A stretch of DNA of 64,000 nucleotides from the NCBI RefSeq assembly GCF_032854445.1, contig NC_088295.1, positions 60,805,249 through 60,869,248 on the forward strand, given 5' to 3'. Origin of the DNA: Liolophura sinensis. Its lineage: Eukaryota; Mollusca; Polyplacophora; Chitonida; Chitonidae. The position numbers and the translations under genes are program-made. Below, in pieces: positions 842 to 52,109 of the stretch (positions within the stretch are counted from its first letter, which is position 1; every line of letters starts with the position of its first letter). The notes under the pieces are model-generated. The model was not told where the DNA came from and ran no database searches. It worked only from the letters and a program-made list of their open reading frames with translations.

Positions 842-2670
842 GTAAGTACAATTTCCAAAACAAACAGTTTTAAAGCAGTGTCATACAAATCTACTCATTT
901 CTGCAATCAGATTTTTTTTCTCTTTGAATGTTACTGATATTAGGCAGTTTTATCAAATCTGAAATGATATTCAAGTTAATGCATATAATCTGCATTTATA
1001 TATTTGTTTTCACATGTAACAGAGAAAATGTCTAGGAGTTTTATGAACGCATAAAATTCAGAATTTCAAACGACCTCTTCATAGTTTGCCTTCACGTTTG
1101 GTCAAGCATTAACACTCAAAACTGACCACAAACCTCATTTTTACTTCTCACGCTTCTGATAAATGATTTTGCCTATTAAATTTTACCTCACAGGTAATCA
1201 TGTGATTTTTCATGATGGTGTAACGTTGAGATATGAAAATGAAAATGAAAGAACAATAATATGTACTAGTATGTATTAAGCTGAAATGGTGTCGTGATGC
1301 TGTGTGCTCTGTGACAGAAGACGATTTGGCCTTTTAATCTTTCTACCATAGCCATATTATACAAGTGCATTTTTTTTCGGGCATTTGTTATTGGAAATCC
1401 AGGTGGGCGAAGTATTGATAAATGCATAAGGCGAACTATGTCATACATTATGACAAATGATATGGCAATGAAATTCAACCTGTGCGGACGAAATGGTAAG
1501 ACATCATTCAAGGACACAAATTTGTTTGACATAGTCTTCCGTAAGTATGTTGTAAACGTCCATACATAGATTCTTTGAAGGCGCAAGGGTGTATGACTTG
1601 AAGAAGATATGTATCAGTAATGCAAATGTGGTCATGTGTTATGGAGGACAGTTAGGATGAACCTTTGTCAGACAGCTTTTTGGCGGAGTTACGCCCATTC
1701 AGTATCCTATGATTCTACCTTTTGTATATATTACCCTATTTCTTTCACCTCTGCAACCAGTATTTTGAAACATTCTCACAGAACTATGAGTTGTAGAGGA
1801 ATACCCTGCAGTCTTGTGAAGGGCTGATCTTAAGTCCCCCATCAAATGAGTTTTAGCATCATTTTCATAATAATTGTGTGCATAAATTCCATTAAAAAAG
1901 TGCTTAATTGATTGAAAATGTTGAAGGTTTACAGTATTCACTTCTTTATTCTTATACCTTTAATATACTGCCTAGCATAAATGCATTTCTGTTCCTTGAA
2001 ACACAGAATTTAGGATTTTTAAATATTTAACACATAAATGAACCCACGAGAGTTAAACTATATTTACAATTTTGTTCAGTTTTTGTTAAGATGCATGTAC
2101 ACTATTCTTAATTAATAACTGCGGATGGTTGTGGGTTTCCCCCTGTCATCTGTCTGGTTTCCTCCCACCATGACGCTGGCTGCCGTCGTACGAGTGAAAT
2201 ATTCTTGAGTATAATAACATGAAATAAATAAATAAACTGAACTCAACATTTTGCACTACGTGTATATTACCTTTCATCAGACTCAGTACTAGTCTTGCAG
2301 AGTTATGTCCCTTCGCACTTGATGCCCCACTTGCGTTTAATGAATTTTTAATGTAAATGATATATATTCCATTACAATTAAACTAGTGACCTTATGATCA
2401 GCAAAACCTTTACTATCAATTAATTAGTTTGGGATAGGTTAGCCTTTTATAACTTTCACATGGAAGCAATTTTTCTGGGATATGCAATTAACATTGCTTT
2501 TGGTACTGACTCTCTTTTGTCAGTAGTCATGCAGTTTTAATCCATCCCGAATTTTGACAGACATTCACAGCTGTGGAGTATAATATTGTGTAATTAATTT
2601 TGAGATAAATGTTTTAATGAACACCCGTTAACAAAAGTAAACAACAAGTATTATATTTCCTGTTTTACAG
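842..2670 (+). other. Probable intron, 1.8 kb, no further gene seen
   Basis: The interval lies between a GTAAGT donor and a pyrimidine-rich TTTCCTGTTTTACAG acceptor. It is AT-rich and holds a truncated SINE at 2121-2236. Open stretches around 1270-1590 and 1640-1940 occur on both strands, have no splice support and look non-coding. Confidence 0.45.
2121..2236 (+). repeat. 5'-truncated SINE
   Basis: It starts at the GCGGATGGTTGTGGG box and runs through the pyrimidine-rich centre, the GCCGTCGTACGAGTGAAAT core and ATTCTTGAGTA to an AAATAAATAAATAAA end. The tRNA-derived head is missing. The tail core has several substitutions, so this is an older copy. Confidence 0.85.
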
Positions 2671-2850
2671 GATCCATCAAAAAAAAATCCTCAGACGGAA
2701 ACATGTACAAGACAACAACTCGAGCGTGCTGTGTCCAAGTGGTTTGTCGGTTCAAGAGACGGAGATGGAGATGGAAGGAGGGCTAGAAGATCTTGCGGGC
2801 CCCTTATTGCACCCACCGTGATGGAGGGTGCAAATAATACAGAACTTTAA
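2671..2850 (+). CDS. Terminal coding exon of an unidentified gene
   Basis: Directly after a strong acceptor (TTTCCTGTTTTACAG, ending at 2670) come 59 open codons and a TAA stop at 2848-2850. Readable blocks are DPSKKNPQTETC, RQQLERAVSKWFVGSRDGDG, RRARRSCGPLIAP and the C-terminus EGANNTEL. The codon pattern is coding-like, unlike the surroundings. The middle is a basic, possibly helical segment (LERAVSKWF) followed by an Asp/Gly then Arg-rich stretch that could be a flexible or nucleic-acid-contacting tail; that is inference. The phase-0 start joins the exon at 771-841. A poly(A) signal follows 103 bp after the stop. I do not recognise the family. Confidence 0.7.
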   Translation, partial: DPSKKNPQTETCTRQQLERAVSKWFVGSRDGDGDGRRARRSCGPLIAPTVMEGANNTEL

Positions 2851-2952
2851 CCAAGACATTACTATTACTTTGTATGGATTGCTGAAAATTAGCCGTGGAA
2901 GTCAACTGTTCTGTCACAGCATTTTTGATGAACCTCGTGTCAAACCTCAGGC

Positions 2953-2958
2953 AATAAA
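2953..2958 (+). promoter_or_regulatory. Poly(A) signal AATAAA
   Basis: A canonical AATAAA lies about 100 bp after the stop codon of the terminal exon at 2671-2850, the expected spacing for a short 3' UTR. Confidence 0.55.
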
Positions 2959-3290
2959 ACCTAATATTCGATAGGCATATCTGATTTTGTTGCCTTAACT
3001 GCAGTATTAAAGGATTGGAAGTAAATGAGATTCAAATGAAAGACCATTCCCTACTTAATAGAAGTTTTGGAAATTTTATTTATTCAGTTATTAAGTCTCG
3101 AAGGAGCATTTGCTTTGATTGGTTTGTTGGACCATTTGTCTTGTTTCTGTGGTCTACCTAGCCTGTACGAGCCTCCCTGGCTCATTGCAGAACACTGGCG
3201 CTTGACCCATAAGGGTATGTTCTTGAATCTGGCTCTCGCTAGATCTGCTGCACTTTTACATCTACTTTTGACAGGTATACTTGGCAATTA

Positions 3291-3366
3291 GGTATGGTGG
3301 TTCCCCCAGGCAATACCTGGTTTCCTGCAACCATAAATTAGACAGTCGTCATTTAAGTGAAATACC
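3291..3366 (+). repeat. Diverged SINE 3' segment
   Basis: GGTGGTTCCCCCAGG, CTGGTTTCCTGCAACCATAAA and GTCGTCATTTAAGTGAAATA follow the same order as the main SINE's centre and tail core but are strongly diverged. The open stretches on both strands at about 3070-3290 immediately upstream may be the older head of the same insertion; no gene is supported there. Confidence 0.5.
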
Positions 3367-3429
3367 ATTGCGTACGTCATAAAACACTGTCGTTCAACAA
3401 TCAAGTAGTAAGGTACGCTGGCTAGTGTG

Positions 3430-3680
3430 AACGAGAGTATTTTTTGTATGGTGGGATGGGTGTGGAAGGAACTGTGTATGCCCATGTGCAGCCTACCTGG
3501 GACCCACTGAAAGCCCACATACATGCAGGTGTCAGCCCACCGACACCCCATGTTTGACCCAGTGGGCAGCTTACTTTGGACCCATTTGGAACGTGTGGTC
3601 AAAATGGCATGGGCATCAGCTGGGCAGCCCAACTAGGCCCCAATGATCAGCCCATGCGAAACCCATGTTTGACTCATTTG
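3430..3680. repeat. Internally repetitive GCCCAT/GACCCA-rich segment
   Basis: Short words (GCCCAT, GCCCAC, GACCCA, CCCATGTTTGAC) recur at irregular spacing; CCCATGTTTGAC occurs near 3548 and again near 3662. This looks like a decayed low-order tandem repeat. No coding signal was recognised. Confidence 0.5.
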
Positions 3681-3689
3681 TGTTTGTTG

Positions 3690-3815
3690 GCTGAGACAGG
3701 ACAATTGGGTTTATTGCAAAAACGTCAAAATTAAAACTATCCCTCTTGACCGTGGGGGAGGAAATCGTTTTGGTCTTTGCACAAATATAAGTCACGATAA
3801 AATGTCCAGAACGCC
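3690..3815 (-). pseudogene. Scrap of retroelement reverse-transcriptase C-terminus
   Basis: The minus strand reads a short block with KRDSFNFDV preceded by a TYICAKTKT-like stretch. It aligns with LYLYKDEQG and KRDNFNFDI in the clearer fragment at 27610-27975. The DNA around it also matches that fragment. Only a short part of the domain remains, with no frame continuity at either side. Confidence 0.5.
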
Positions 3816-4422
3816 TGTGTTTTCTTTTCCTTTTAAATGCCTTCATTCAAGTTTCTCGAATATGATAGTTCTCTGGTGATTTGCCTCATGATTGTGTATA
3901 TTTCCAACTAACCTGGGGCTAGGGGCTGTCTCGTCATCGTGTTAAATTAGGTCACAACGTTGGATACATGACCACGAGCAATGCAGAGCCGAATTGAGAC
4001 ACTTATATTATTATCGGCAACTTGTATAGCATGGCACACTGCTTGAATACTACTTTCACTCATTCGCCTAGCGCATACCGTGCGTCTTTTCAACATAACT
4101 GAAAAGTGCTGACTGCCCCTCTTCTTAAAATTTGTGGCCGGTAAAATATTAAAAAGTCATTCAAATCATCAAGGATTCTCTATCATTCATGGAGATGTAC
4201 AAGAATATGGATAAATACCATTGGCCTTTTCCCAATATGATATACATGCATACGTGTGTCACACGTGGAAATGTTCCCTACCGCTAGGCAAAGATTGGTA
4301 AATTACCCATGTCTTTTCCACCCCTACTGCACTGGTCGACATCGTTTAAGACCAACATCGAGGTGTATGACATTAAGCTATTGTACGAGGAATGATTGAT
4401 CAGGAGGCACATCGAGGTGGCT

Positions 4423-4653
4423 ATCACATCGATTTTGAGGCCGCTGTGAGTTCAAGTCCAGCTCATGATGGCTTCCTCTCCGGTCTTACGTGGGAAGGTC
4501 TTCCAGCAACCTAGAGATGGTCGTGAGTTTTTCCAAGGCTCTGCCCGGTTTCCTTCCATCATAATGCTGGTCGCCGTCGTACAAGTGAAATATTCTTGAG
4601 TACGGCGTAAAACACCAATGAAATAAATAAATAAATAAATCACATCGATTTTG
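4423..4653 (+). repeat. Target-site duplications of the SINE at 4438-4638
   Basis: ATCACATCGATTTTG occurs at 4423-4437 directly before the SINE and again at 4639-4653 directly after its A-rich tail. The last 13 bases are unambiguous; the first AT could belong to the tail. Confidence 0.85.
4438..4638 (+). repeat. 5'-truncated SINE with intact target-site duplications
   Basis: The copy begins inside the tRNA-derived head, just before the B-box-like GAGTTCAAGTCC. It continues through GGCTTCCTCTCCGG, the CAGCAACC box, the Pro-rich-looking centre, the tail core and AAATAAATAAATAAATAAAT. The A-box part of the head is missing, yet a 13-15 bp target-site duplication flanks the element exactly. The truncation therefore happened during insertion and is not later decay. 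Confidence 0.92.
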
Positions 4654-8611: not shown

Positions 8612-8911
8612 TAAAGCAGAGCAAAGGCCTCCGTTGCTCAGTTGGTTAGCGCGCTAGCGCAGCGTAATGACCCAGGAGTCTCTCACCAATGCCCACGCTG
8701 TGAGTTCAAGTCCAGCTTATGCTGGCTTCCTCTCCGGCCGTACGTGGGAAGGCCTGCCAGCAACCTGCGGATGGTCGTGGGTTTCCCCCGGGCTGTGCCC
8801 GGTTTCCACCCACCAGTGCTGACCGCCGTCGTGTAAGTGAAATCTTCTTGAGTACGGCGTAAAACACCAATCAAATAAATGAATAAGTAAATAAATAAGT
8901 AAAGCAGAGCA
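8612..8911 (+). repeat. Target-site duplications of the SINE at 8624-8899
   Basis: TAAAGCAGAGCA is found at 8612-8623 and again at 8900-8911, flanking the element with no gap. Confidence 0.9.
8624..8899 (+). repeat. Full-length tRNA-derived SINE
   Basis: The head starts AAGGCCTCCGTTGCTCAG, with an A-box-like TTGCTCAGTTGG and a B-box-like GAGTTCAAGTCC about 60 bp later. The body follows (GGCTTCCTCTCC, GTACGTGGGAAGG, CAGCAACCTGCGGATGG, GGGTTTCCCCCGGGC), then the tail core GCCGCCGTCGTGTAAGTGAA and an AAATAAATGAATAAGTAAAT end. A 12-bp target-site duplication flanks it. SINEs of this kind are transcribed by RNA polymerase III from the head and copied by a partner LINE or similar element, which the sequence does not identify. 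Confidence 0.93.
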
Positions 8912-8984: not shown

Positions 8985-9055
8985 ACTTGCGAAAAGAGGG
9001 AAGCGTTTTGGTTTTTGAACAAATATAGGTTCAGATAAGATGTACCATCTGGAGA
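8985..9055 (-). pseudogene. Reverse-transcriptase C-terminal scrap
   Basis: The minus strand reads GTSYLNLYLFKNQNASLFS. This corresponds to GTSYLE in the retroelement at 20.3-22.8 kb and to SYLDLYLYKDEQG in the fragment at 27.6-28.0 kb. Only about 20 codons are recognisable. Weak DNA similarity continues near 9480-9560, matching 12290-12330. Confidence 0.55.
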
Positions 9056-9224
9056 GTCTGTGGATTATTTATCCAGCGAAGATGCGTAAATACATTGTGT
9101 ATCTTTCACAGCTATTGCTTTATATATGGATTGTTTAAAGCTAGCAGGTGATCAGTATACAGTTTAGTGAATGAGAAAGATCGGACTTGATGAGGATTAC
9201 TCTTTAACAGTTTCTGAGTCACAA

Positions 9225-12030: not shown

Positions 12031-12114
12031 TTGTCGATAATACAATGTGTATCTCAGTTGGGTTTTGGTCTGCCAGCAACCAGCTCCGGGTTAAGGGGAA
12101 TTAGACACAGTCAT

Positions 12115-12380
12115 AAAGTAGAACGCCAGAGACTTTGAACGCTGTGTCCATTTTCACTTTCAAGAGAATTATACTCATTTTAAAACTTAAGAAACTTGGA
12201 GTGAAGGCTTTTGATGGAATAACCTTGACACAGTTTTTTGCAGAAATAACTTATGACGTTGATTGAAATCGTCACACAACCTATAATCAGCTGTTCCGAT
12301 GGCCTGAAGCAGGAATCTAACGTCAGATACTGACGTTAGTGTAATTCCATGCAGAAGTGTAGAAAAAAATGAGCACATAC
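12115..12380 (-). pseudogene. Decayed reverse-transcriptase C-terminus
   Basis: The minus strand reads CDDFNQRHKLFLQKT, matching CDDINLRYKLLVQKL in the fragment at 27.6-28.0 kb. After a frame change it reads SLHSKFL and NGHSVQSLW, matching LHSKFLKF and YGQSVQNLW there. The order and spacing fit the end of the same reverse-transcriptase family. Frame breaks make it non-functional. Confidence 0.6.
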
Positions 12381-15900: not shown

Positions 15901-17690
15901 TACAGCTTCCACAGATTAATACAGCTTCCGACAAACCTTCGGCCTGTGTTGGACATGTTCTTCGATATCGTCTAGTCTAGTTTAGATTTACTGGGCATCA
16001 AATGATCTGATTTCCTAATTTTCAAAATGAAGATGAAAAAAGGCGAAGAGTGAAGATGAGTATGTCATAATGCTACACTATCGAAGAAAATTAGGGCTTC
16101 TGTGAAAAAGCACGTTTTTTGAAAACATGAACGTAACATGTTGTGCAAGTAAGAAATGGGAGAACATATTCCGTAACCACGGCCATTCGCTAAAGTTTCT
16201 TATAACGCCTACCATTGTTCAAGCAATGAGCATGTACTGATTTTAGCCATCAGTTACAGTTAAGCTTGATTTTATCAAGAAAAATGACAAAATACAGAGA
16301 GCTTCCAAAGTTGGCTGATTTAAGTCGGTCTTACGTGTTAGTAGAAGCTTGCTGTGTTTATGGATTACCTGTCGTCTCAAGAGCTGAACAATTATATTTA
16401 AATACGATTCAACTAGGACCTTCAAAGCAAAGGATATGTTTAATAAAATTTAAGATCCTGGGTATTTTCGTCAGTGTACATAATAGAAGATTTAGATGTA
16501 GGTAAAATTCCCTTAAATACAGAACACAAGACATATATTTTTCAATAATTTTGCAATAACGTTTCACGTTAATCTTTTGAAAACCCGTCAAAAGGCCGAC
16601 ATTAATTTAATCACGAAGGCTTTTGTTCGTTTAAGGGAAGAATTGTGAATAAATTGAGGAGCAGCAAACAACAGACGTCATAATGAAATTATCTATATCA
16701 CTGTCCATGGATGAAAGTAACAACAAAGACATCTTTGATCAAGATGGGGATAGTTTCATATTAGATCAGGTTCTTCTGAGTGTCATCTAATAAACCTGCA
16801 GTAAATCCCTGTAAATTGATGACATTTATCTTGGCCTCGAATGCAAACCAAATATAAAGCATGGGTGTACAATATAATATACTGGCAATAAGTCTGTGAA
16901 ATTAGATAGCATTTGGGCGATTGACAGGGAACATTATCAATAGCCTTTTGGAAAGCTGACAGAAGCGGTGTGATTCACTTTGGTGTTAGGTTCTAGTAAT
17001 TGTATCCCCTCATCTTGCACGCCATGATCTATAGAGTGAGGATATAGGTGTAACCTCTGGGTCTGCATGAGGTAAAATACACTCTGCTACAAGCCACGAC
17101 TTACAGGTTTCTGATGACGTTTGTCTACAGGCCTTCAACAGCCAACAGCCACCAAGTGACGTGGACAATATTGGTGTAACCAAAGCAATACTTTATCTAC
17201 ACGTATGAAGCTACATGATTGCTTTATCTATTTGTCTTGACTGAACAAATGCCTCGTGGTTTTCACCACGGCGAGCAGCTTCTCCTGTACAAGTGAATAG
17301 CGACTTTTAAGTTGAGTGATAAACTTACTGATGACCTGCTCAGTCTCCATAATTTTCACACAGGTCAGACGTCTTTAAATAAAGAGAATGTCTAACATTT
17401 TACATGTACAATTGCAATCTTAATGAGCGTCAACCGCAAATGTATATGGATATATATAATACATATGGATTATGTCATCTCAAGAGTTGAACGATTTTAC
17501 TTTACTCCGATTCCACCGATAGGCGGAAGGAATGTATTATATTAACGAAGGTAACTTTTAATAATTTTCCATCATCCTGCCCAGCTGCATGTAATTAAGT
17601 CAAATGCACTTCCATGGCAAGGATTTGACTTGATGTGACGGTTGAATAAAGACAAATAACACCAAGGTTTGAAGGTCAGATTTAGAAATT
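15900..17690. other. Gene-free repeat-derived interval
   Basis: It holds two copies of a conserved short block (see 16356-16411). No host gene, RNA gene or complete mobile element was recognised. Confidence 0.4.
16356..16411 (+). repeat. Conserved short block, reads YGLPVVSRAEQLY
   Basis: GGATTACCTGTCGTCTCAAG recurs nearly unchanged, with a shared continuation, at about 17467-17515 and 26141-26200 (plus) and at 26845-26895, 33890-33940 and 39280-39325 (minus). Four of these copies read as similar peptides (YGLPVVSRAEQLY, YGLPVVSTTNRLYF, YGFPIPSCANRLYF, YRLPVVSRAERLYF). This suggests the block was once coding in a repeat family. No domain is recognised. Confidence 0.6.
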
Positions 17691-17780
17691 CCTGTCACGT
17701 CTCACGAGAGCGCGTGTAAAGGCTATCGTGTAACTTTTCCTCATTCCGAACATATTGTGTTGAAGAATATGAGAAGTTGA
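17690..17780. repeat. Array repeat D, copy 2 (short)
   Basis: CTGTCACGTCTCACGAGAG and GTGTAAAGGCTATCGTG correspond to CACGTTTCCCAGAAAG and TTGTAAAGGCTCTCGTTTTG at 14.28 kb. Only the left part of the repeat is clear. Confidence 0.5.
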
Positions 17781-18399
17781 AGCAAATTCATTGCTTTCTG
17801 CGCCTATGAGTGCACTGAAAGATTATTCTAGCGTAGTGACGGAGAGGCCAGAGCCACATGATTAAAGTACTGATAACAATGAGCGGACAGACTCCGGTTT
17901 AGTTCTGTCAACTGTCAAACGGTACCTAATCAGCTTATTATACATATCCGTTGAATTTGGTGTACAAATCACGAGGGTAAATGTTACCGGCTTGTATGCT
18001 ATATTCCCAAGGAATCTAAAAGTAAACGATACCACTCATATACCATTGAAAGAGCGCACGAAGTCAATAATTACCTTCAGCCTGGACAACGGAATACCCT
18101 ACTACTGTATAGGCAGCCTTTGGAACAATCGTGCCGTTATATATCCATCATCTGTGTGAAGATATAGACTTATTATGTCTACAGATGCGGGAGAGAGAAT
18201 GAATAAATAATTCAGAATTTAGACTGTATATGCAGTGTTTTAATCCTATCATGAGCCATATTTATGATCATGTCAAGCCTTTGTGCACGACTGACGATAG
18301 GCAGCTGTGCTGAGGAGGATCGTATTCTAATGAACAAGAAGTCCACAAAAATGAAAAATTGACCTAATTTTGAACCCAGCAAAGTGTATATAATATGCA

Positions 18400-19190
18400 A
18401 AATCGTGATTATGTTGTGACTGGTCATATGAAATATGGTCAATAAAAATGTTATAGCATTTTGGCAGTAACAAATATACATATATGATGCCTTTTCCTTC
18501 TTTGGTTTATCTTTATTGTTTATTATATTGCTAGAAAATAAATCTCAATATTGTTAACGTTTCTGTGCGATGTATGGATATTCATACCTGGCAATGGTTC
18601 TCAGCGAAATAAAAACTTCCGTATTGATGCATATTCACTCCTACAACAGAACACGTCTACAAGGATACAAGAAGTGGACTCATAACGTACAAAATAATCA
18701 AAATAATAAAACATAATTAAGGTGTACAGCACACAGAGAGTACTGACGACAGAGTGATAGCTGGCAAATGTTCACACACCCGGTGAAATACGGCCTCTTG
18801 TCAATTTATCTCAGTTAGGGTTTATTTCTAACAGTTCATGTCAATGCATAAATGTAGCATAACACAAAAGACCAGACAAAATCTCCCACTAACAAAACTT
18901 TTCCGCTGAGCCTGTTTGGTCAACTGAAAGGTTAATTTCCGAATTAAGTGCAGGTTATTGCTCCAAAGGTTCAATATCACCATCTCCGCATCGGCCGCGG
19001 GTATTACTAGTCAGTAGATCTTCATTGACCGGAAATGTTCCCAGTTGAAAACAATCTCTAACCAGTTCTTGTTTTTCAGCTTTTCCTAAACCGTTCATGC
19101 CCATTCTACTTAAAACAATATACATTATTTTGTGGCTGTTATTTCAGGCCATCGACAATCAATCCTTCCATCAAATCTGTCAACAAGCTG
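18400..19190. repeat. Array repeat C, copy 1, with embedded minus-strand R
   Basis: Anchors: TTGGCAGTAACAAATATACA, TTTGGTTTATCTTTA, AACAGAACACGTCTAC, TTGGTCAACTGAAAGGTTAA and TAGATCTTCATTGACCGGAA. The same order is seen at 24585-24990, 28680-29170 and 31700-32260. A minus-oriented copy of repeat R lies inside at about 18730-18830. Confidence 0.75.
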
Positions 19191-19199
19191 TGACATCGC

Positions 19200-19800
19200 T
19201 TTTGAAGTGTTGAATGGCGTCAAATACAAATAGTAGTGTTGTAAGCACCTTATTCCGTCACCCTAAATGGCTACACAGAAATTTCAATACTCTACCCGTC
19301 CTTTTCTACCAATGACAACTCCACAGAAGATTGAAAGATTAAATGGTTAGTATCCAGATTTACCATATGTACTTAGCCTAATTTGCAAGATTTGGATGTA
19401 ATAAACATATTACGGCTATGGCTTATCGGAAGCGCAATATAATGAATTAAACCCATAATAACAAAAGACTTACCACCCTGGATGACCCCAGCATTTAAGA
19501 CCTTAAAACACAAGGGAAAGTGTTCGCCATGTATATCAAGAATAAATGTGTTAAAAGTGTGGGGGTGGGGTGTTGAAGTGTATTGATTCAATGCACAGGA
19601 CAGTGACCATCTCTTCTCAAAGATCAGTTTTACGCTACTCGATGAGCAGAACTACGTGGGCAAAATTCTCGACTTCCGAAGGTGTGAATGACCTAATACA
19701 TTGTTCTCACATACTCATTGGTGGGAATAGGTTGGCTACGTGGCCGATTAAAATCTTTTAAAAAATGATATGGTTTAAAAACGATCACAATTTTCAGCTT
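19200..19800. other. No gene supported
   Basis: AT-rich with short open frames on both strands only. Nothing recognised. Confidence 0.4.
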
Positions 19801-19804
19801 CTAA

Positions 19805-19975
19805 TTTATTTATTTGATTGCTGTTTCACGCCGTACTCAAGAATATTTCACTTATACGACGGCGGCCAGCATTATGGTGGGAGGAAACTGGGCATAGCCA
19901 GGGGGAAACCCACGACCTTCCACGGGTACTGACAAACCTTACTACTTACGACTGGAGAGGAAGCCATTCAGCTTT
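19805..19975 (-). repeat. SINE, head missing
   Basis: From left to right: TTTATTTATTTGATTG (tail), CACGCCGTACTCAAGAATAT, TACGACGGCGGCCAGC, ATGGTGGGAGGAAACTGGGC, GGGGGAAACCCACGACC and GGAGAGGAAGCC. The copy stops before the B-box, so the tRNA-derived head is absent. Confidence 0.9.
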
Positions 19976-20257
19976 TAAGGTTCTTCTATGTACTGAATGT
20001 TAGCTCACCCGACTCATAAATCTCTGCCAATTGATGCAAGACATTACGGTCTTGAATTTAAACCATTATAGCTATTATAGACGTGTTGACCGTTTTACAT
20101 GATAATATGTGTTCTCTTTTGCACTTCGTCGTATTTGTTACGAAGTCCGTCTTTAAATATTGTTTAAACGCTTATACTTATAACCTGCGCATGCCCCGAT
20201 TCTGTTGGTGGTTTTTGACCCCCGAGGCGAGGCCTCTGCCCAATTATACCAATAGCT

Positions 20258-20900
20258 ATGAACTACAACAATATGTATAGGAATAACACTAGGAATAGTG
20301 GTGCATGTTCCCAGGCCGAGTCAGTAAATGATTCCTTTGCACTAAGACCCATTTCCATCCAAATATCGGATATATTTGAGAACATTAAACACGGTATTTC
20401 CACCAAACCGTGTTCTATCCAAGTGAACAATTGTTTGACACTGAATTACCAAAGCAAATATTTAACTATTTCCAAATGTGGACATACTAATTGTCTTACA
20501 TGTCCATCATTTGATACATCCGCCATTTTTATTTCCTCACTAACTGGTAAATGTTATTCTGTTAATTCCTACGTTAACTTAAGTTGTATTGCGTCCAACT
20601 GTATTTACTTGGTAACAAGCAAGAAGTGTGGTCAGCAGTATGTTGGGAAGACCACCCAGAAACTACATCTACGGGTGAACGGGCACGGAAGTCTGTGCGC
20701 AAGAAACAATTGCTAATAGGCAAGCATTTCTCTGCCTCCGACCATGACTGGGACCATTTCAGCATTCAAATAATAGAATCGGTTTATCCATCAACAAATG
20801 AGACAGATGTCGAATTTGAACGTAAAATCCGTGACCGTGAGCTTTTCTGGATGCTAGAGATTGGTTCAGTCTTCCCATATGGGTTAAATGATAACGTTAT
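20258..20900 (+). pseudogene. GIY-YIG endonuclease domain, one frameshift
   Basis: The ATG at 20258 opens a frame with an N-terminal variable region, then KCGHTNCLTCPSF (Cys/His cluster, about residues 72-84) and the GIY-YIG core, NCIYLVTSKKCG and QQYVGKTTQKL, with the conserved Arg in LRVNGH. The frame then shifts by one base near 20683 and continues as KSVRKKQLLIGKHFSASDHD, DHFSIQIIESVYP and RELFWMLEIGSVFPYGLND, the usual C-terminal half with the conserved Glu/Asn region. This nuclease nicks target DNA for integration in related elements. A frame at 20083-20280 also reads into this region (PLPNYTNSYELQQY), so the true N-terminus may lie further upstream behind another frame change. Confidence 0.82.
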
Positions 20901-21549
20901 GGGAATCGGCAATGTAACATCTAGCCAACCACATGACTCCGTCATAACAAATTTATTCAAATACCATAAACGTAGACCTCGCAGTCATGGTAGGAGGAAG
21001 TTCAACAGAAACATGATTCAAAAAAACGTTACAGTTAGCTATTTAGTAGGATTGTCGTATGACACCAATAGCATGCATGCTCTACGCACAGTATTATATG
21101 CACTGCCAATGAACTTGCTAAAACAGGTAGTTCAAGACGTATCCAATAACATACACAATTTTAATGTTCCACCTTACCTTGTACGTCTGTGTCAAGACAT
21201 ATCTTATTTTCGATTGTATCGCCCTGTAACTACAATTGAAACTCAACACAATCGACTCTTTCTGAAGATAAAGTATTTAGACAATGGCCTTGATTTAAAT
21301 AACCTACCAAGCATCTTTAATGAACCTGATGTTCGTAGTGCTGTGCCTAATTATTTTAATATCCAAGAGCCACCTTGCATATCCTATGAGAATACAAAGT
21401 CTATCGCTTCCAAAATTTTCAGTTATTCCCAGGCCATCAAGGAGTTCGATTTGGCGACGTATACTTCTGGCGGCCATAACTGTGATCGTGAATCCTCAGT
21501 TTTTACCTACGACAAATGTAAACATGTCCTGACTGGTGACTTTAATATT

Positions 21550-22815
21550 ATTAAGAATCACGATCTAAGGAATCTCTTTATGAGGGGTCCTAAGTATAGA
21601 GAAAAGAGAAATGTCAACATTCGATCAAACAAAAACAATATCATCTTGGCACTTGAGGAGTATGTTAAAAAATGGTCAAAACGGGAGAAAGTGGATTCTT
21701 CGGTACTTGTCTTTGGAGATTGTCAAAAAGAAGGCTAGTTTAACTATACACCGTCTAGACATGGATGCTCTACCTAAAGTTAAACAGGTTCTGAAGGATC
21801 CCACTGTGCAAAAAATACTCGCTGACCTTCATAGTAAATATGTCATCATTGTAGCAGACAAGGCTCCTAATAATGCCATCTTTATTTGCAAGAATTATTA
21901 TTATCAAATTGTTGTTCAAGAGCTATGTGCATCTCCAAGGACACCCAGGTATTCTGCTACTACATGTGCTCTGGGGGAACTATTTAACAAACACAAAACC
22001 TTTCTTAACGAAAGGCGCATAAATATACCTACCCGTCACACAGAAATACCACAACTTTACTGGATTCCTAAAATGCATAAATCCCCATACACGGCTCGAT
22101 TTATTGCGGGTTCAAGAAGCTGTATCACCAAACTCTTGTCAACCCTACTTACGAGAGCGTTACAAGAAGTAAAGTCATTTTGGAATAAGTATTGTTGTGT
22201 CATAAGAAAAAAATTCAGGTGTCAACTGCATGTGGATTGTTAACAACTCCAAACGTCTTACTGAAGAACTTGATGCTCATATGCATATACCGTACAAAGA
22301 CGTATCCACATGGGATTTTTCTACTCTCTATACTACGATTCCTGACAAAGACCTTATTGAAAGAATATCGTCGTTAATTGTCTCGGTATTTACTAAAACA
22401 GGTCACCGTTACATTACCGTCAGAAGCAATAAGGCTTTCTTTAGTTCTACTCTTTATAAAGGTTACCACTCATGGGATGTTACATTATTTACTGAATTAC
22501 TTGAATTTCTCATTAATAACATCTATGAGAAATTCGGAGATACCATTTACCAACAGTGCATAGGTATTCCAATAGGTACCAGTTGTGCACCTCTTTTGGC
22601 AGAGTTTGTTTTCATATGAATACGACTACATGCAGAAATTACTTAAAAGTAATATCTTTAAAGCTCGATCCTTTTCATTTACGAAGCGGTATATTGATGA
22701 TCTACTGGCGCTAAATAACCCCCATATTGCTGAAGCGGTGAAGGAAATCTCTCCGCCTTCATTGGATTTAAAGGAGACAACAGGTAGTCCTGATGGTACA
22801 TCTTATCTGGAAAGA
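21550..22815 (+). pseudogene. Penelope-like reverse transcriptase, broken frame
   Basis: In order: RNLFMRGPKYREKRNVN (start of the RT region), then a frame change near 21690-21715, YVIIVADKAPNNAIF (fingers), PQLYWIPKMHKSPYTARF (RT2), a frame change in an A7 run at 22207-22213, STWDFSTLYTTIPDKDL (motif A, catalytic Asp kept), QQCIGIPIGTSCAPLLAEF (motif B), a one-base change near 22610, and FTKRYIDDLLALNN (motif C, both catalytic Asp kept). It ends in PPSLDLKETTGSPDGTSYLE. The enzyme would copy the element's RNA at a nicked target. All catalytic residues visible are intact, while the frame is not. The thumb and C-terminal segment seen at 27.6-28.0 kb are absent here. Confidence 0.85.
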
Positions 22816-22819
22816 GGGT

Positions 22820-22965
22820 TCCAGAGGCACAAATGACACACCTTTCCTCCAGGAACTTCTTAACTTCACAGACACTCAGCTCCTTTATTTTCCCCACCGT
22901 TCATGCATGTGTACTCTATTTTTTGTGAAACATGTTAATGTACGTGTGATCAAAAATAGTTGAGT
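22820..22965. repeat. Segmental duplication E, copy 1
   Basis: CCAGAGGCACAAATGAC, TTTTTGTGAAAC and GTGATCAAAAATAG match CAGAGGCACAAAATGACC, TTTTTGTGAAAC and GTGATCAAAAATAGC at 26345-26490. It begins where the retroelement stops. Confidence 0.7.
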
Positions 22966-23148
22966 AACATCTCAAGTGATCCAATAGGACTTCTTTGGCC
23001 TTCACCAGAAAAGAGCTACATCTTGAAACTCCCCTTTTGAGGTCGCTATTCCCGTTACTGTTTCAGGAATAGCTAAAAGGGCCTACACAACAGTATGTGT
23101 AACATATGCGCAAAAGGTTGGGCATGAAATTAATGTATTATTTATAAA

Positions 23149-23210
23149 CTGATTTATCTGATTGTTTTACGCCGTACTAAAGAAGGAAACCCACGACAAT
23201 CCGCAGGTTG
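23149..23210 (-). repeat. Internally deleted SINE
   Basis: TGATTTATCTGATTG and TTTTACGCCGTACTAAAGAA are followed directly by GGAAACCCACGAC and ATCCGCAGGTTG. The tail core and the pyrimidine-rich centre between these blocks are gone. Confidence 0.75.
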
Positions 23211-23454
23211 ATGACTGACATTTCAAGTGAATTGACCACATGACAATTTGTGTGTAATTTTTTTGTTTTCAGACAAGATACCAGTATAAAGCATTACTGT
23301 TGTAAGTAATACAAATAACAATATCAATTTGCAATAAGCATTGTAAATTTCGATTACTAAACCACTGTTGAAAACTACCTGATGAGTGGGTCAGAATATG
23401 TGTGGATAGATGTTACCGCAGAAAAAACAATAATATTCCAAACTCCTCATCACC

Positions 23455-24360
23455 TTCCCGGGTGTGCCTGTGTGAAGGATGTCTTGTAGTGCATTTCGTC
23501 AACAGACACAGATTAATCGCGTGAACGTGTTGATCCCGAGGAAAAACTGCGAGGCCAAAGTAATTCACGGCTTACAACCGCTCTTGTAGCGCATTGATGG
23601 ATTATTTTAGTGTATGTGTTGACAGCTGTCCACCAACAGCTAAAAAGATAAAAAGCTATTGTCGAAACCTCTGCAGGCATTGGTCAGACTGAGAGAGAAG
23701 CGTCTAGTTTAGATTCCGGTAAAGGCCAAACGCTGCCTAATCTGCTAAGCTAAAATATCCGTGGACTGATGAAAGACGCCGTGGTCTGAAATTCAAATCA
23801 TGGGAGTAATGCATGGCGTATATCCGATTTTCTACGGCCATCGAGCAATTCTCTTGACGTCCTTTAATTAGGTATCTCCGGCCTCTCTGTGTGTGTAAGA
23901 CATCAAGACCACTTTTTGCTGGTGTAGATGAGTGAAACCAGACATTCATAAACCAGCCGTCCAGCAAAATAAACGATCACGAAAACCATTATCTCAGAAA
24001 CGTACACCCTGCTAGTTTATAAGTTGTCAATAATCAAAATATATATGTTACTCTCAGTGCAAACTGTTCATATATCCAAAGCAGAAATTAGATTCGTTTG
24101 CAAGTCTACATGTAAATCGCCAATGGCAGCATAGTCCATTTTATGACAACTTCTGTGGCAAACTAGTCTGAGAGGAATAAATTATTCTGATTTAAAGCTG
24201 CAGCGACTATATTTTTTGTGTAATTATGGTCTGGCGAACCAAACTGCGGGACTTGTTTCACTTTCAAACCCACAAGGATTAAATGTGTAAGTGACCAGGT
24301 GTGCGGATTATATAAATTATACATTGTAAAACACAGCCTGTCCATACACCATATAACGTT
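23455..24360. repeat. Array repeat D (long form), copy 3
   Basis: Aligns with 30850-31570. Anchors: TAATTCACGGCTT, GTAGCGCATTGATGGATTA, TCTGCTAAGCTAAAATAT, ATTCAAATCATGGGA and ACACAGCCTGTCCA. Array repeat C follows directly in both places. No coding remnant was recognised. Confidence 0.75.
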
Positions 24361-24411
24361 GGTAGTAAACTGTAAGGAAAACAGAGACGGAAAAAAGGAA
24401 TCTTGACAGTC

Positions 24412-24457
24412 TTTATACGACGTCGGCCAGCGCTATGGTGGGAGAAAACCGGGCACA
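24412..24457 (-). repeat. Short SINE scrap
   Basis: TTTATACGACGTCGGCCAGC and TATGGTGGGAGAAAACCGGGC match the SINE tail core and centre only. It lies between the D and C repeats and is absent from the paralogous place near 31.6 kb. Confidence 0.75.
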
Positions 24458-24584
24458 GGAAATACCGTAGGAAATACCGCCGTACATGTATATTCAAAGA
24501 CTCCAGCCCAACTTCATCACTTTTCATGGTAATTAATGCACACATACAAAGATTTATTTTTATATTTAACTGTATGGGCAATTA

Positions 24585-24990
24585 ATGACAGTAAGTTAAG
24601 TAAACAAATGTCAACAATGTTACGTTTTTGTGCAATGCAAGTTCATGTTCATACATGTAACTGTTGACGGTAAAAATCTGCGTATTCATATGGTATTTAC
24701 TCATACGGCGGAACACGTCAGTTAAACTGCAGGGAGTGGACTCATGCCGTCTGAAAGACTGGGTGTAATCCCTCAGTATCAAAGCTTTCCCTAATCCCGT
24801 TTGATCAACTGTAAAGCTAATATCCGAATTTAATGCGGGTTGTTGATCGGCCCTCTGAACACCGTTATAGTACGTAACATACTCGTTTTGCCTTCATCGC
24901 TAGGCGGCACAATAAGTGTTCATCGGCCGAAAATCCATTCCGTCTCGTCATCTCTAGGAGTTGCCTAAACCATCCACGCCAAGTAACACT
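24585..24990. repeat. Array repeat C, copy 2
   Basis: Shares CATACATGTAACTG, GGAACACGTC, TTTCCCTAATCCCG and GATCAACTGTAAAGCTAAT with 31700-32260, and weaker similarity with the copies at 18.4 and 28.7 kb. Confidence 0.75.
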
Positions 24991-25004
24991 CACAATATAA
25001 TAAA

Positions 25005-25100
25005 GACGTACAGCATAGAGAGAAAAACCACAGCAGCAATGACAGTTTGGCATCTGCCAAATGGTCACACGTAACCAGCGAAACACGACCTCTTGTGAGT
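25005..25100 (-). repeat. Dispersed repeat R, minus orientation
   Basis: TACAGCATAGAGAG, AAACCACAGCAG, CAAATGGTCACACGTAACC and ACGACCTCTTGT follow the reverse complement of the R copies at 5.4 and 9.2 kb. Confidence 0.65.
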
Positions 25101-25499
25101 TTCCCCAATCCCCCAAACGGCACAAACCACAAAAGAAGTAAGAATGTATAGATTATAAAGAAAGGTACGAAACTTGGAAGGAATTAAGCAAAGAGAAGCA
25201 GACAGTTTTGAATTATGGTGGGAAAACGCCAGAAATGTTCCCCGCAATTCAATGAAATATATTTATATATTGATGCCATATACCAATGGTAATAATCTAT
25301 TGAGTAAAAAATGTCCCACAATCTAAACCTAGACAAAATCAGATCTAATTTTGCGTTCTTGAATTTAAACTACCGTAAACACAGGGACGTGTGGATGGTT
25401 TTACATACTACATATTCACTATTTCTTTCTTTCTTACTGTAGCTCATCAACCGCTTTATCGCTATGTAATCAGTTCATGTTTATGCCTCAGAACTGATT

Positions 25500-26080
25500 T
25501 TGTTGTTTTGACTCTCAGCACCCTCTAGGAAATCATCTTTTGAGCGCAAAATTCCAGATTTCAGCTTGGATTGACTCGAACCTGCAGTCAGTCTCAAGAG
25601 CAAATTGTAAAATGCAGTCGGGTTAAACAAATCCTGAAGCGAACGTCGTAGTCACAGTGATGATCCAAAGGTCTGGTAAAGAATTAATACCTGTAATCAT
25701 TTCTTGAAGCTAGACGTAAGACAACTTACCAAGAAGAGGGATCCTCCGATTAACCGCCATAGATGACACTTTTCTCTTAACTTTCAGCACCGCTTAAAAA
25801 TAAATACTACGTTGGGAATTGTCCAGAAACAAGAAATGAATGCAACATGCTACAAAGAAAGAAAAGACAGAACATGCATTCTCCTTTTCTTTGTCCCGAC
25901 CAGAAAGCTACTAACGTTGCTTACCATTGTTCATGCTATGAACACACGTGTTTTCAGTTTACTACCAATAATAATTACGCTTGTTCTTCTTGTATTCAGA
26001 AGAGTGTTCAAATATGTACATGTATCTAATAAGTCACCTAAATATAAAACTAGCCAGACGCCTTGGGGAAGAGCGACCCC
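25500..26080. repeat. Array repeat F, copy 3, with following segment
   Basis: GACTCGAACCTGCAGTCAG, CTCAAGAGCAAATTG and GGTCTGGTAAAGAATTAATA match the copy at 29.87-30.1 kb. The following TTACCATTGTTCATGCTATG and ATTCAGAAGAGTGTTCAAAT match 30.5-30.8 kb. Open frames at 25812-26174 are unsupported. Confidence 0.75.
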
Positions 26081-26344
26081 TGACATTTCCCAGATCCAGT
26101 TGTACGTTCATTGGATGACAATCATCAGCAGACATTTCCTGTATTTATGGATTACCTGTCGTCTCAACGACTAACCGATTATACTTCAGTCCGATTCTGG
26201 TGAATTATTGCCGCGTCGACAATAAGGGAGTTTTAGATCGAACTTTTTTGTGACTGAAGGTAAAAATAGTCCTAATGTATCATGTGACTTGTCAAAAATG
26301 TTAGGGAACTTCTGTCTACATCGATATACCGATTACCTGTCTTG

Positions 26345-26490
26345 CCGTGTTTCAGAGGCACAAAATGACCTTTCCTTCAGAAACTAATTCCTCAAAACAC
26401 CCAGATTTGTTCATGTACTCCAATTAATTTTTGTGAAACTTTTATAGACGCACACGTTAAAGTACATGTGATCAAAAATAGCATTTCAAC
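26345..26490. repeat. Segmental duplication E, copy 2
   Basis: Partner of 22820-22965. Upstream of this copy there is no retroelement, so it shows what lies at the site without the insertion, or a different junction. Confidence 0.65.
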
Positions 26491-26601
26491 GCGCTATCAG
26501 GCGATGGCAGCTTTCCAGTTCTTCCCCTGAATCCAGAATTCAGAATAAGAATAATGCGGCAATGATTACACAAGAGCCTTTGCATAGGCTATCTTAAACC
26601 C

Positions 26602-26844: not shown

Positions 26845-27165
26845 ATCGGACTGAAGTATAGTCGATTAGCACATGAGGGTATCGGGAATCCATAAATAAG
26901 TGAACTTTTGCTTATGACGGGCACCGTATGACATTGCAATTGCAATGTAAATGTAAGCGTCATATCTGACATTCTTAAGCCATTTGTAGTTCGTAAAGGG
27001 CGTTTCAAGTCGATAATCGCAAGATCCATTTCCAAAACAACTTTTAACATTAGCTCCAAAAGACAAAGGTATGTAGGAAATTATACAACTAGGAAATAAA
27101 GCCGGTAACACACGAGAGAAAAGCGGTCAACAGTTTTCAATGATGCCGGGCAGACAGTGCATATT
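26845..27165 (-). repeat. Repeat remnant with two conserved peptide-like blocks
   Basis: On the minus strand VLEMDLAIIDLKRP (27000-27050) and GFPIPSCANRLYFSPI (26845-26895) read in one frame. DLAIID-like blocks also occur on the minus strand near 7840-7900 (as DLATGLATID) and 11825-11885 (DLAIIDLERP), and on the plus strand near 62605-62690 (DLAIIDVENSYW). Recurrent similarity in one frame points to an old coding repeat. No domain is recognised, and DNA-level homology alone could explain it. Confidence 0.5.
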
Positions 27166-27299
27166 CCTGGCATGAATCCCATATCAAAGTTCAAATGCGT
27201 AGTCCATGCATGAGTTCCAGGTCAAATAACAATTAAACAATGTATCTAGGTCGCGCTTTGATTGCGGCTGTTCATGAAGGCATCTCCGCAGATGTAATG

Positions 27300-27600
27300 A
27301 GCATGGCTGCCTTTACGGCCCCTAGCCCCAGGTTAAGCGGTATTAGATACAGTTCGAAAATGATGAGCGTTACGGACCTTAACGGCACAGATTGGGATGC
27401 AAACGATTACGGCTTTCCCGTTAGCATGTAAGGATCTCATACTATAAGAGGCGCCATCTATGATGTTATACATGACATGCTAATCTTTACAAAAGCTGTC
27501 TACAAGATAGACGGTTACTCTCCGCAACCAGCGCCATCTATGTTGTTAAATACCATGTACGCGATAGATATGTACATAAGGATAACAGCACCGTGTATTT
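27300..27600. other. Sequence downstream of the RT fragment, with local duplication
   Basis: CCCCTAGCCCCAGGTTAAGC (27319-27338) resembles blocks at about 8577, 12083 and 34640 that sit near other RT scraps or repeat R. It is probably part of the same element's 3' region. GCGCCATCTATG occurs twice (about 27451 and 27530) with shared flanks, giving a local duplication of about 80 bp. Confidence 0.5.
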
Positions 27601-27609
27601 GGTTGATCA

Positions 27610-27975
27610 CAATGCAGATCGCCAGAGATTCTGAACGCTCTGTCCATACCTGCCAAAAAGAGTGTTATATTCACTATAAAATTTGAGAAACTTAGAATGA
27701 AGGCGTTTGATGGAGTATCCTTAACAAACTAGTTTTTGAACTAACAACTTGTAACGCAGATTAATGTCATCACAATTTATGGAAAATCTGAGAAACGCTA
27801 CAAGGCGAGATATGTATACGCCATATGCAGGACCTTTTGGTATATTGCTATCCAAATAAGGATAATTTGCAATATCAAAATTGAAATTATCCCTTTTGTC
27901 GTAAAGGCGGCGTGAAAGGAGACCTTGTTCGTCTTTGTACAGATATAGATCCAAATAAGATGTAGGCCTACCATC
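27610..27975 (-). pseudogene. Reverse-transcriptase C-terminal fragment (Penelope-like)
   Basis: The minus strand reads SYLDLYLYKDEQGLLSRRLY, DKRDNFNFDIANYPYLDSN, IPKGPAYGVYISRLVAF, NLRYKLLVQKLVC, then one TAA stop, then GYSIKRLHSKFLKFYSEYN and LFGRYGQSVQNLW in the same frame. This is the thumb and C-terminal part that follows the YIDD motif in this RT family and is the segment missing from the element at 20.3-22.8 kb. The opposite strand, the distance and the clean stop show that it is a separate insertion. The reading frame is otherwise well kept. Confidence 0.8.
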
Positions 27976-28505
27976 AGGAATATATGTTGTCTTTAAAGTT
28001 TTTCATTTTCTGTTTTGTTAATTTTGAAGACGTCTGACCAGAATGAATTTTAAGATCTAGTTATGATAATTACATATGCAATGGTTACGGATCATATGTT
28101 GTCTCTTTATTTTGACTTTTAGAACCCTGGATGATCGTTTAAACTGGTCATCAATGTATTTATCATTCAAATTGAAGCTGTTATGTGCATAAAAACGGTT
28201 CATCGTCTTGGTTTCGATCGAGACCAGGACGCTTTTCATCTGTCAGTAAAAACAGAAAGAATAATCAAGTCGTGAATTAGTTTGCCCTCGCAGTTTTTTC
28301 GTTGGATCAACACGTTATCTTTCTGAGGTTAAAGTGATTCTGTTGACGGAATGCGCTACAAGAGATCATTTACTCAGGTACTCCCGGCAAGGTTATAGAG
28401 TCTTTCGATTATAATTGTTAATTGTGCGGCTGTCGATAGAATTGTTATTTGTATGAGATACAACAGCAACATTTTACTCTTGTTTTTTTAATAATTCGAA
28501 TTTAT

Positions 28506-37609: not shown

Positions 37610-37902
37610 GAGGATATTTGATTTTTTTTTTTTTTTTTTTTTTTTGATTGGTGTCTTACGCCGTACTCAAGAATATTTCACTTATACGACGGCGGCCAGC
37701 ATTATGGTGGGTGGAAACCGGGCATAGCCCGGGGGAAACCCACGACCATCCGCAGGTTGCTAGCAGACCTTCCCACTTACGGGCGTAGAGGAAGCCAACA
37801 TGACTTGAACTCACAGCGACCGCATTGGTGAGAGGCTTCTGGGTCATTACGCTGCGCTAGCGCGCTAACCGACTGAGCCACGGAGGCCCCGAGGATATTT
37901 GA
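37610..37902 (-). repeat. Target-site duplications of the SINE at 37622-37890
   Basis: GAGGATATTTGA at 37610-37621 and again at 37891-37902, both directly abutting the element. Confidence 0.93.
37622..37890 (-). repeat. Full-length SINE, youngest-looking copy
   Basis: On the minus strand it starts GGGGCCTCCGTGGCTCAG, with A-box-like TGGCTCAGTCGG and B-box-like GAGTTCAAGTC, and continues through the whole body to the tail core and CACCAATC. It ends in a pure 24-A tail (24 T at 37622-37645 on the plus strand) in place of the AAATAAAT pattern of the other copies. The perfect 12-bp target-site duplication and complete structure make it the best reference copy in the window. Confidence 0.95.
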
Positions 37903-42506: not shown

Positions 42507-43181
42507 GACTTCGATAAGTTTATACTGTGCCATTACGTCGATGAGTTCATACTGTGCCATTAAGTCGATGAGTTCATACTGTGGCATTACGTCGATGAGT
42601 TCATACTGTGGCATTAAGTCGATGAGTTCATACTGTGGCATTACGTCGATGAGTTCATACTGTGCCATTAAGTCGATGAGTTCATACTGTGCCATTACGT
42701 CGATGAGTTCATACTGTGCCATTAAGTCGATGAGTTCATACTGTGGCATTAAGTCGATGAGTTCATACTGTGGCATTACGTCGATGAGTTCATACTGTGC
42801 CATTAAGTCGATGAGTTCATACTGTGGCATTACGTCGATGAGTTCATACTGTGGCATTAAGTCGATGAGTTCATACTGTGGCATTACGTCGATGAGTTCA
42901 TACTGTGGCATTAAGTCGATGAGTTCATACTGTGGCATTACGTCGATGAGTTCATACTGTGCCATTAAGTCGATGAGTTCATACTGTGCCATTACGTCGA
43001 TGAGTTCATACTGTGCCATTAAGTCGATGAGTTCATACTGTGGCATTAAGTCGATGAGTTCATACTGTGGCATTACGTCGATGAGTTCATACTGTGCCAT
43101 TAAGTCGATGAGTTCATACTGTGGCATTACGTCGATGAGTTCATACTGTGGCATTAATTCGATGAGTTCATACTGTGCCAT
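42507..43181. repeat. 27-bp minisatellite, 25 units, with higher-order repeat
   Basis: Twenty-five units of 27 bp, each containing GATGAGTTCATACTGTG. Almost all variation is at two sites: TAAGTC or TACGTC, and TGCCAT or TGGCAT. Units 2-12 (42858-43154) and 13-23 (42561-42857), counted from the right, carry the identical series of variants. This is a perfect 297-bp higher-order duplication. Because 27 is a multiple of 3, both strands stay open: the minus strand reads (MPQYELIDL/MAQYELIDV)n from an ATG at 43181 to a stop at 42423 (252 codons), and the plus strand reads a Ser/Tyr/Cys-rich repeat for 300 codons. The array lies in intron 5 of the Ig receptor gene, on whose strand the MPQYELID reading lies. 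No splice site or recognised signal supports translation. Confidence 0.93.
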
Positions 43182-43674
43182 TATTTGTGCAAATAAATAT
43201 TCATTAAATTCTTGCTCTCCTGTTTTACATTTCAGTGTTATATATCATATCTCATTATACTTTACTTATTTACATGTTGATAAATATGGCCGCATTTTTG
43301 TTAATCAACTTGTTAAAGAGCCATTGGAATGGACGGAAAGTGTCACAGACAAGGAAAAGCCTTATATAAAACATTATTTATTCATTTGATTCAATTTAAA
43401 GCCCAAGAAGATGAGACGCTCATCTTTTGAGCAGGAAAAGAACTGTGAACGTGATTAAACTTAAGAAAATTCGCGTATATCTGCCGACTGGCAGTGGATA
43501 GTCATCGTCGTTTGGAGTGCTTAATCTGCCAGTCAGCTCAAAGTCAGGACTACAACAACAGGCCATTAAACAGTTTATCCAACGGAAATATTCCTAGACA
43601 ACACGACTGGGATATTTAGTGGGAAATGTCATTTCCACTATCACGGTAAACAACACCACACAGCCAGTGTGTAC

Positions 43675-48056: not shown

Positions 48057-48286
48057 TTACCGAAAATTAATATTAATATATAAAATATATGGAACAGAAA
48101 ACGTTATTAAACAAATGTTTATAACTTATGAATACCATAAGTAACGGAGTGAAAGGGGCAGGACATTGGTTACATTTTAAGGAATGCAGAGATTCCCAGA
48201 TGATATGATAAGAGTTTATGCTAGAAGCAGGTAAACTCTTACGGGTATCGCATGGGGAAAGAAAATAACAGTCGAACTTGTCATAC

Positions 48287-48607
48287 CTTTTACTATGATT
48301 CGAACAGCCCTGGTTTCGGTATGCTCCCGTCCGTAAATAAAGTTAGTCGTGACACACACGTAAGAACCACTGTGGTTGGCAGTCAGGTTGGTCAGTTTCA
48401 GTTCTGGTTCCGATGCCATGTTCACCAGGCCTTTGGAGCGATCTTGGCCATTCAAGGGCAGGTAACTCCAGGCGAACCCTGGACGAGGATTTCCGCGCGC
48501 TCGACACATGAACATAACGTCATCTCCCTCGACTGCGACCATCTCTTGTGCCAGGGGCATGTCTTCCGTGTTCACTCGTGTGTAAACCTCCGTGTCCCGG
48601 ACGGAGT
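48287..48607 (-). CDS. Ig receptor exon 3: membrane-proximal Ig domain
   Basis: 321 bp, phase 1 at both ends; acceptor TTTCCTCTTGTAG, donor GTATGA. Residues 258-364 form an I-set/C2-type Ig domain: VEGDDVMFMCRARGNPRPGF with Cys292, Trp304 in FAWSYLP, and LTANHSGSYVCVTTNF with Cys342, which would pair with Cys292. NLT and NHS are possible N-glycosylation sites. The domain leads directly into the transmembrane exon. Confidence 0.9.
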
Positions 48608-50026: not shown

Positions 50027-50183
50027 ACACGACGTCCGCCAGCCTCAAGGCTAGAGGATAATGGCCAGGGCCGGGAAAACCCACAACCATCCGTTCGTTG
50101 CTGGAGAAGTTCCCACGTACGACCGGAGAGGAAGCCAGCATGAACTCACAACGACCGCATTGGTCAGAGGATCCTGTGTCATT
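50027..50183 (-). repeat. SINE with lost tail, in intron 2
   Basis: CGACGTCCGCCAGCC, GGGCCGGGAAAACCCAC, ATCCGTTCGTTGCTGG, CACGTACGACCGGAGAGGAAG, ACTCACAACGACCGCATTGG and a broken head. It lies in the same orientation directly before the next SINE. Confidence 0.85.
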
Positions 50184-50195
50184 GTTTTATTTTTT

Positions 50196-50397
50196 CATTT
50201 ATTTATTTATTCACTTGGTGATTTACACCGTACCTAAGAATATTTCACTTATGTGACGGCGGCCAACATCATAGTGGGAGGAAACCTGGCAGAGACCGGG
50301 GGGAAGCCACGACCATCCGCAGGTTGGTGGCAGACCACCCCGCGTACGATCACATTCGTGAGAGGCTCCTGAGTGATTGCTTTGTGTTAACGCGCCA
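50196..50397 (-). repeat. Near full-length SINE, in intron 2
   Basis: A TTTATTTATTTATTCACTTGG tail, CACCGTACCTAAGAATATTT, TGACGGCGGCC, GGAGGAAACCTGGC, GACCATCCGCAGGTTGG and GTGAGAGGCTCCTGAGTGATTG. The copy ends near TTAACGCGCC, inside the tRNA-derived head. It lies about 40 bp from the 3' end of exon 2. Confidence 0.88.
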
Positions 50398-50439
50398 AAC
50401 ATTTGGCCTTCATCTTCACGGGATACAACGTTAACTCAC

Positions 50440-52071: not shown

Positions 52072-52109
52072 ACACACACACACAATGCCGTGTAGTAATT
52101 CTACAGCCA

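Follow-up and report, generated by a model that had tools for sequence, protein, structure and literature searches.

A decayed Penelope-like element, very probably of Naiad type, with its GIY-YIG nuclease ahead of the reverse transcriptase

The locus described here raises the question of whether a GIY-YIG nuclease and a reverse transcriptase (RT) that lie next to each other on one strand belong to a single Penelope-like element (PLE) with the nuclease in front and, if so, to which kind of PLE. The window, i.e. the whole stretch of DNA that was analysed, is 64 kb long (G000:C1:60805249-60869248) and comes from a genome of 609 Mb. An earlier note on this DNA had listed nuclease motifs and a Cys/His cluster upstream of RT motifs and had proposed a Naiad-type element. 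When the sequence was read, all of these motifs were found on the + strand and in the order stated: the Cys/His cluster KCGHTNCLTC upstream of the nuclease (20474..20503), the GIY-YIG core IYLV...YVG with YVGKT (20603..20647), and the RT motifs A (DFSTLYTTIP, 22314..22343), B (GIPIGTSCAP, 22563..22591) and C (RYIDD, 22687..22701). Motif B was located by a pattern match; with up to two mismatches allowed, the pattern gave a single match in the window and none in any of 100 shuffled versions.

Window positions 20168-22811 (+) hold one PLE copy with the GIY-YIG nuclease ahead of the RT, the bounds being set by another copy of the family. In blastn, this stretch corresponds to positions 25-2676 of a family unit of about 3665 bp from copy L011, with 94.3% identity. 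The span 20258-22815 given previously was right as to the presence of the element and its strand, and too short at the 5′ bound when compared with the other copy. The reading frame of the window copy is broken. Its N-terminal part and the first half of the nuclease lie in frame 2 (20336..20686, +; 89% identity in tblastn with the nuclease ORF of copy L005), the second half of the nuclease and the linker in frame 1 (20680..21624, +; 90% identity with the L005 ORF), and the RT domain is spread over three frames (21628..22812, +; four pieces of 86-93% with the L005 RT ORF). The frame changes near 20680, 21710, 22209 and 22607. Additionally, the copy is 3′-truncated and stops about 1 kb before the family 3′ end. 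With these four frame changes and the last ~1 kb of the unit missing, the copy is dead. It also departs from the family at two residues, carrying Ser in place of the first CCHH Cys, in the region of the GIY-YIG core, and Arg for the second Cys of the CxC linker, where it reads C-D-R (21481..21489, +). The catalytic E near 20839 and N near 20887 are retained in 20 of 20 copies. Against the Pfam GIY-YIG profile, the nuclease piece of the window scored 18.7 bits (E 0.0021), under the cut-off of 22.6, and the broken RT pieces gave no RT-family match in Pfam, PHROGs or solved structures, where only weak, unrelated or unnamed matches were obtained.

With frames this broken, the linkage of nuclease and RT is not self-evident from the window alone, and a GIY-YIG gene and an RT element might have inserted independently and come to lie side by side by chance. 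A DNA search of the genome with 20258-22815 as query gave 1739 first-look candidates, and scoring 40 of them gave 49 match rows. The other copies for which the earlier note had proposed to look are present: at least 10 other genomic places match the nuclease-to-RT stretch over its full length, from base 1-5 to base 2549-2554 of the query, with 92-94% DNA identity. In copy L005, the nuclease-linker ORF (1571-2872, 433 codons) and the RT ORF (2873-4255, 460 codons) share one frame and are separated by a single stop. This copy likely carries an extra base near the start of its nuclease-RT frame, because 12 of 20 aligned rows show a 1-nt gap there. The L005 nuclease scored 25.9 bits against Pfam GIY-YIG, above the cut-off of 22.6; the RT ORF of copy L004 scored 17.3 bits against RVT_1 (E 0.0042), below the cut-off of 29.6, and no match to the RT was found among solved structures. 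From the full-length genomic matches and the single frame of L005, we conclude that nuclease, linker and RT are one gene, in that order. Chance adjacency is ruled out by the recurrence of the whole unit, and the same order is found in a second, diverged family of this genome (L031, see below), which leaves two independent insertions with a practically negligible probability.

The anatomy of the family was examined in 20 fetched copies, the window copy among them. As these were selected among the top matches to the nuclease-RT query, they are uninformative on how frequently the order is kept. One of them (L013) is the L005 locus, and the L005 frame served as the yardstick for codon-position and residue counts. 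Twenty diagnostic residues, including those of the Cys/His cluster, the GIY-YIG core, the catalytic R/E/N, the CCHH set, the CxC linker and the RT aspartates, are each retained in 17-20 of the 20 copies. The three Cys of the Cys/His cluster are kept in 19, 17 and 19 copies, and the CCHH residues in 17, 19, 19 and 18. At the first CCHH position, 17 copies have Cys, one copy each has Trp and Arg, and only the window copy has Ser. In the linker, which reads NCDCES, the first and the second Cys are each present in 19 of 20 copies, with Arg at the second found in the window copy only.

The family unit of ~3.67 kb has head-to-tail pseudo-LTRs and a terminal repeat of 37-40 nt, unit positions 1-39 recurring at 3626-3665. 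In 6 of 20 copies, a 5′ extension of 136-677 nt repeats the 3′ end of the unit, head to tail. The 3′ end lies just past the 37-40-nt repeat in 15 of 20 copies, whereas the 5′ start is variable and lies more than 100 nt inside the unit in 8 of 20. Border repeats, pseudo-LTRs and 5′ truncation are known PLE traits (PMC9033089, PMC12910113). No second nuclease of either type was found in the ~1.1 kb after motif C, where the search returned one chance match of 14 residues (E 0.71). A hammerhead ribozyme was found neither in window 17000-26500 nor in the pseudo-LTR copies L016, L021 and L018. Four canonical PLE loci of the same genome (L040-L043) were without one too, so that its absence does not discriminate between the two kinds of element.

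Canonical PLEs bear directly on a second alternative, namely that the element is a canonical PLE whose C-terminal nuclease was moved ahead of the RT by rearrangement or tandem insertion. Partial tandem and inverted copies are common among PLEs, a canonical tandem would place a nuclease upstream of an RT, and canonical PLEs do occur in this genome. The canonical motif-B pattern was found at 7 genomic places (0 with a reversed control), and in 7 of 7 a GIY-YIG-like nuclease follows the RT on the same strand; these nucleases were identified from their motifs and a weak resemblance to the nuclease of the window family. A 2024 study of a canonical PLE describes the C-terminal nuclease of that element and cites Craig et al. 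2021 (PMC11167929). However, the order common to many copies and the single frame of L005 rule out a rearranged canonical element, the unit has no nuclease after the RT, and both its RT and its nuclease are strongly unlike the canonical ones of this genome. A rearranged canonical PLE is therefore highly improbable.

The difference between the RTs is clearest in a maximum-likelihood tree, in which nuclease-first (9 rows) and nuclease-last elements (5 rows) are separated with 100/100 support. The earlier note had considered that the RT might group with those of C-terminal-nuclease PLEs; this is not so, the in-genome canonical RTs lying across the 100/100 branch. The tree is built on 14 of 17 stitched rows (the fragment at 9 kb of the window and the canonical L044 and L046 were left out) and takes in 7 of the 20 fetched family copies. 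Its rows were stitched from tblastn pieces of broken copies with X at stops, and some, including the window row, begin with 17-43 residues read out of frame. Support is weak at 8 of the 11 inner branches of the tree, L031, L045 and L001 form long branches, and only one row was taken from outside this genome. In the same genome, the host telomerase gene was also located. That the two groups of RTs are homologous is indicated by hhalign (96%, E 4.9e-9, 8 versus 5 rows). The presence of nuclease-first and nuclease-last PLEs in one genome offers a clear in-genome comparison of both layouts.

Between motifs A and B, 73 residues were counted in 6 measurable family rows and 47-53 in 5 canonical rows, some of these rows being stitched over breaks. 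By their length only, the extra residues fit an insertion-in-fingers domain, which Craig et al. reportedly described in 2021 for PLEs with an N-terminal nuclease. The title of that work states that such PLEs dominate many invertebrate genomes. The window-type motif-B pattern was found at 170 places (0 in the control) versus 7 for the canonical pattern, a count that concerns the RT motif alone and patterns that are not equally strict; it agrees with the 2021 title and adds a family to a picture that is otherwise unchanged.

When the genome was scanned with Pfam GIY-YIG, scoring of all 124 candidates left 10 matches with an E of at most 0.001, and none of the canonical-locus nucleases is among them. 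Seven belong to the window family, and one resembles the host SLX1 nuclease. A further match, L031 (G000:C1:16661085-16664318), is a second, diverged nuclease-first PLE family, with 57% identity to the window family in the nuclease and 37% in the RT. The last, L032 (G000:C12:13366217-13369366), is a GIY-YIG protein of a different type (YILICQGCGKQYIG...), unlike either PLE group in the genome. The sole relative found outside the genome is an RT fragment, L001 (JACCHT010000015.1), on a contig assigned to the bin of a Bathymodiolus mussel symbiont. No nuclease was found on the 8000 bases of this contig that were examined, so only the RT places L001 with the nuclease-first elements; its motif A-B distance is 60 residues, measured across a break. 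Because the contig carries an animal-type PLE RT fragment, the symbiont bin probably holds mussel host DNA. This relative is the one hint that bears on the mollusc-like genome proposed in the earlier note. Among viral contigs no relatives were found in a scan that may omit records near this genome.

The window contains further pieces of the same kind. An inverted and more diverged 3′ fragment (26949..27992, -) matches unit positions 2640-3661 with 86% identity and begins close to the point in the unit at which the window copy ends. An inversion that split the window copy might leave such a fragment, but it is more likely a separate, older one, because the inverted part shows 86% identity and the 5′ part 94%; the inverted fragment is also 84-87% like other copies that match most of its length. 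At 9011..9216 (-; tblastn pieces of 60-71%, blastn 68%) there is a short piece of RT from a related copy that has diverged further, and at 12111..12276 (-; unit 2852-3019, 75%) a short piece of the same kind of element, from its C-terminal end. Elsewhere in the window, a dispersed SINE-like repeat of ~150-250 bp occurs on both strands in copies ~75-93% alike (4442-4640, 8696-8892, 19804-19966, 37626-37888, 63338-63495 and others). A 27-bp tandem array of 24.9 copies at 42511-43183 is open on both strands (273 and 337 codons). Exons for immunoglobulin domains were detected at 48216-52131 (-), with Ig_3, I-set, V-set and C2-set_2 above the cut-off. These exons are perhaps one host cell-surface gene and show that the genome is animal-like, and no further.

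The living ancestor of the family would have encoded one protein of ~950-1000 residues, a size estimated from broken copies, with Cys/His cluster, GIY-YIG nuclease, CxC linker and RT in this order. By analogy to known PLEs, the nuclease would most likely nick genomic DNA and the RT would copy the element RNA into the site from the nicked end (target-primed synthesis). Head-to-tail or template-jumping synthesis, likewise known from PLEs, would then produce the partial tandems seen as pseudo-LTRs, in which the 3′ end is constant and the 5′ end varies.

The copies are dispersed in the genome, and their later decay is neutral. Over the 171 pairs formed by 19 copies, pairwise divergence averages 6.2% (2.9-14.2%), with a star-like pattern. 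Changes seen in just one of these 19 copies fall evenly on the three codon positions (377/381/380), while the 40 changes common to at least 3 copies lean to the third position (11, 10, 19). By this count, each of the 19 copies has at least one in-frame stop or gap, L005/L013 having one stop. Because private changes are even and shared changes lean to the third position, the data fit a burst that arose from one coding source or a few, with neutral decay afterwards.

The flanks of the insertions were compared in 19 copies, one further copy with a cut-off 3′ flank being left out. The same diverged tandem repeat was observed on both flanks in 5 of 19 copies, a raw count rather than an excess over a genome background, and one that includes a weak case (score 34 versus a control maximum of 26). 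Such flanks were not seen in the other 14 of the 19. A microsatellite insertion bias has reportedly been noted for Naiad elements. It is possible, though rather unlikely, that the present lineage prefers minisatellite arrays. If true, this would widen the reported microsatellite bias to longer repeat units, and target choice could be tested by the repeat phase at the junctions.

With regard to the kind of PLE, Craig et al. are said to have divided the elements with an N-terminal GIY-YIG nuclease in 2021 into Naiad (invertebrates) and Chlamys (algae and others). Naiad elements reportedly show an N-terminal nuclease, a CCHH set, a CxC linker, a longer RT stretch between motifs A and B, and pseudo-LTRs. 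Of eight features reported for Naiad, five were found in the window family (N-terminal GIY-YIG in one ORF, CxC linker, CCHH, pseudo-LTRs, no hammerhead), and no feature that was tested failed. The Naiad assignment of the earlier note is supported, on the basis of this anatomy and of the split of the RT from the in-genome canonical PLEs. On these grounds, the window very probably carries a dead copy of a Naiad-type PLE. The label comes from anatomy, which leaves room for an N-terminal-nuclease PLE outside Naiad, either Chlamys-like or of an undescribed sister clade. Such a lineage is improbable in view of the CCHH residues in 17-19 of 20 copies, which Chlamys is said to lack, the animal-like host and the related RT in mussel-associated DNA. 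A classification table lists both PLE/Naiad and PLE/Chlamys among its entries (PMC10941475). The family may be a new one of a known kind, unless it is already catalogued in Repbase, Dfam or the 2021 data.

Compared with known systems, the family is most similar to Naiad. By what is reported of Naiad, both share an N-terminal GIY-YIG nuclease with CCHH, a CxC linker, a C-terminal RT lengthened between motifs A and B, pseudo-LTRs, no detected hammerhead and many copies in an animal genome. In-frame UGA (selenocysteine) is said to occur in some clam and spider Naiads, whereas the window family shows no sign of its use: the 20 aligned copies contain 46 in-frame stops, of which 11 are TGA, and 0 of these 11 lie at Cys positions. 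None of the tested features differed. Chlamys, which is reported from algae, spike mosses and slime moulds, shares the nuclease-first order but is said to be without CCHH, which the window family has. With canonical PLEs (Penelope/Poseidon, Neptune, Nematis, Hydra), the family shares a homologous RT and the pseudo-LTR structure. Their nuclease is weakly similar (tblastn E 2.5e-5), with CxxC-like, YxG and HxxxxxH residues in both. Neither hallmark of canonical PLEs, a nuclease C-terminal to the RT and an RT that groups with C-terminal-nuclease PLEs, was found in the window family. Canonical PLEs carry the nuclease at the opposite end, their RTs fall on the other side of the fully supported branch, and their stretch between motifs A and B is shorter by 20-26 residues.
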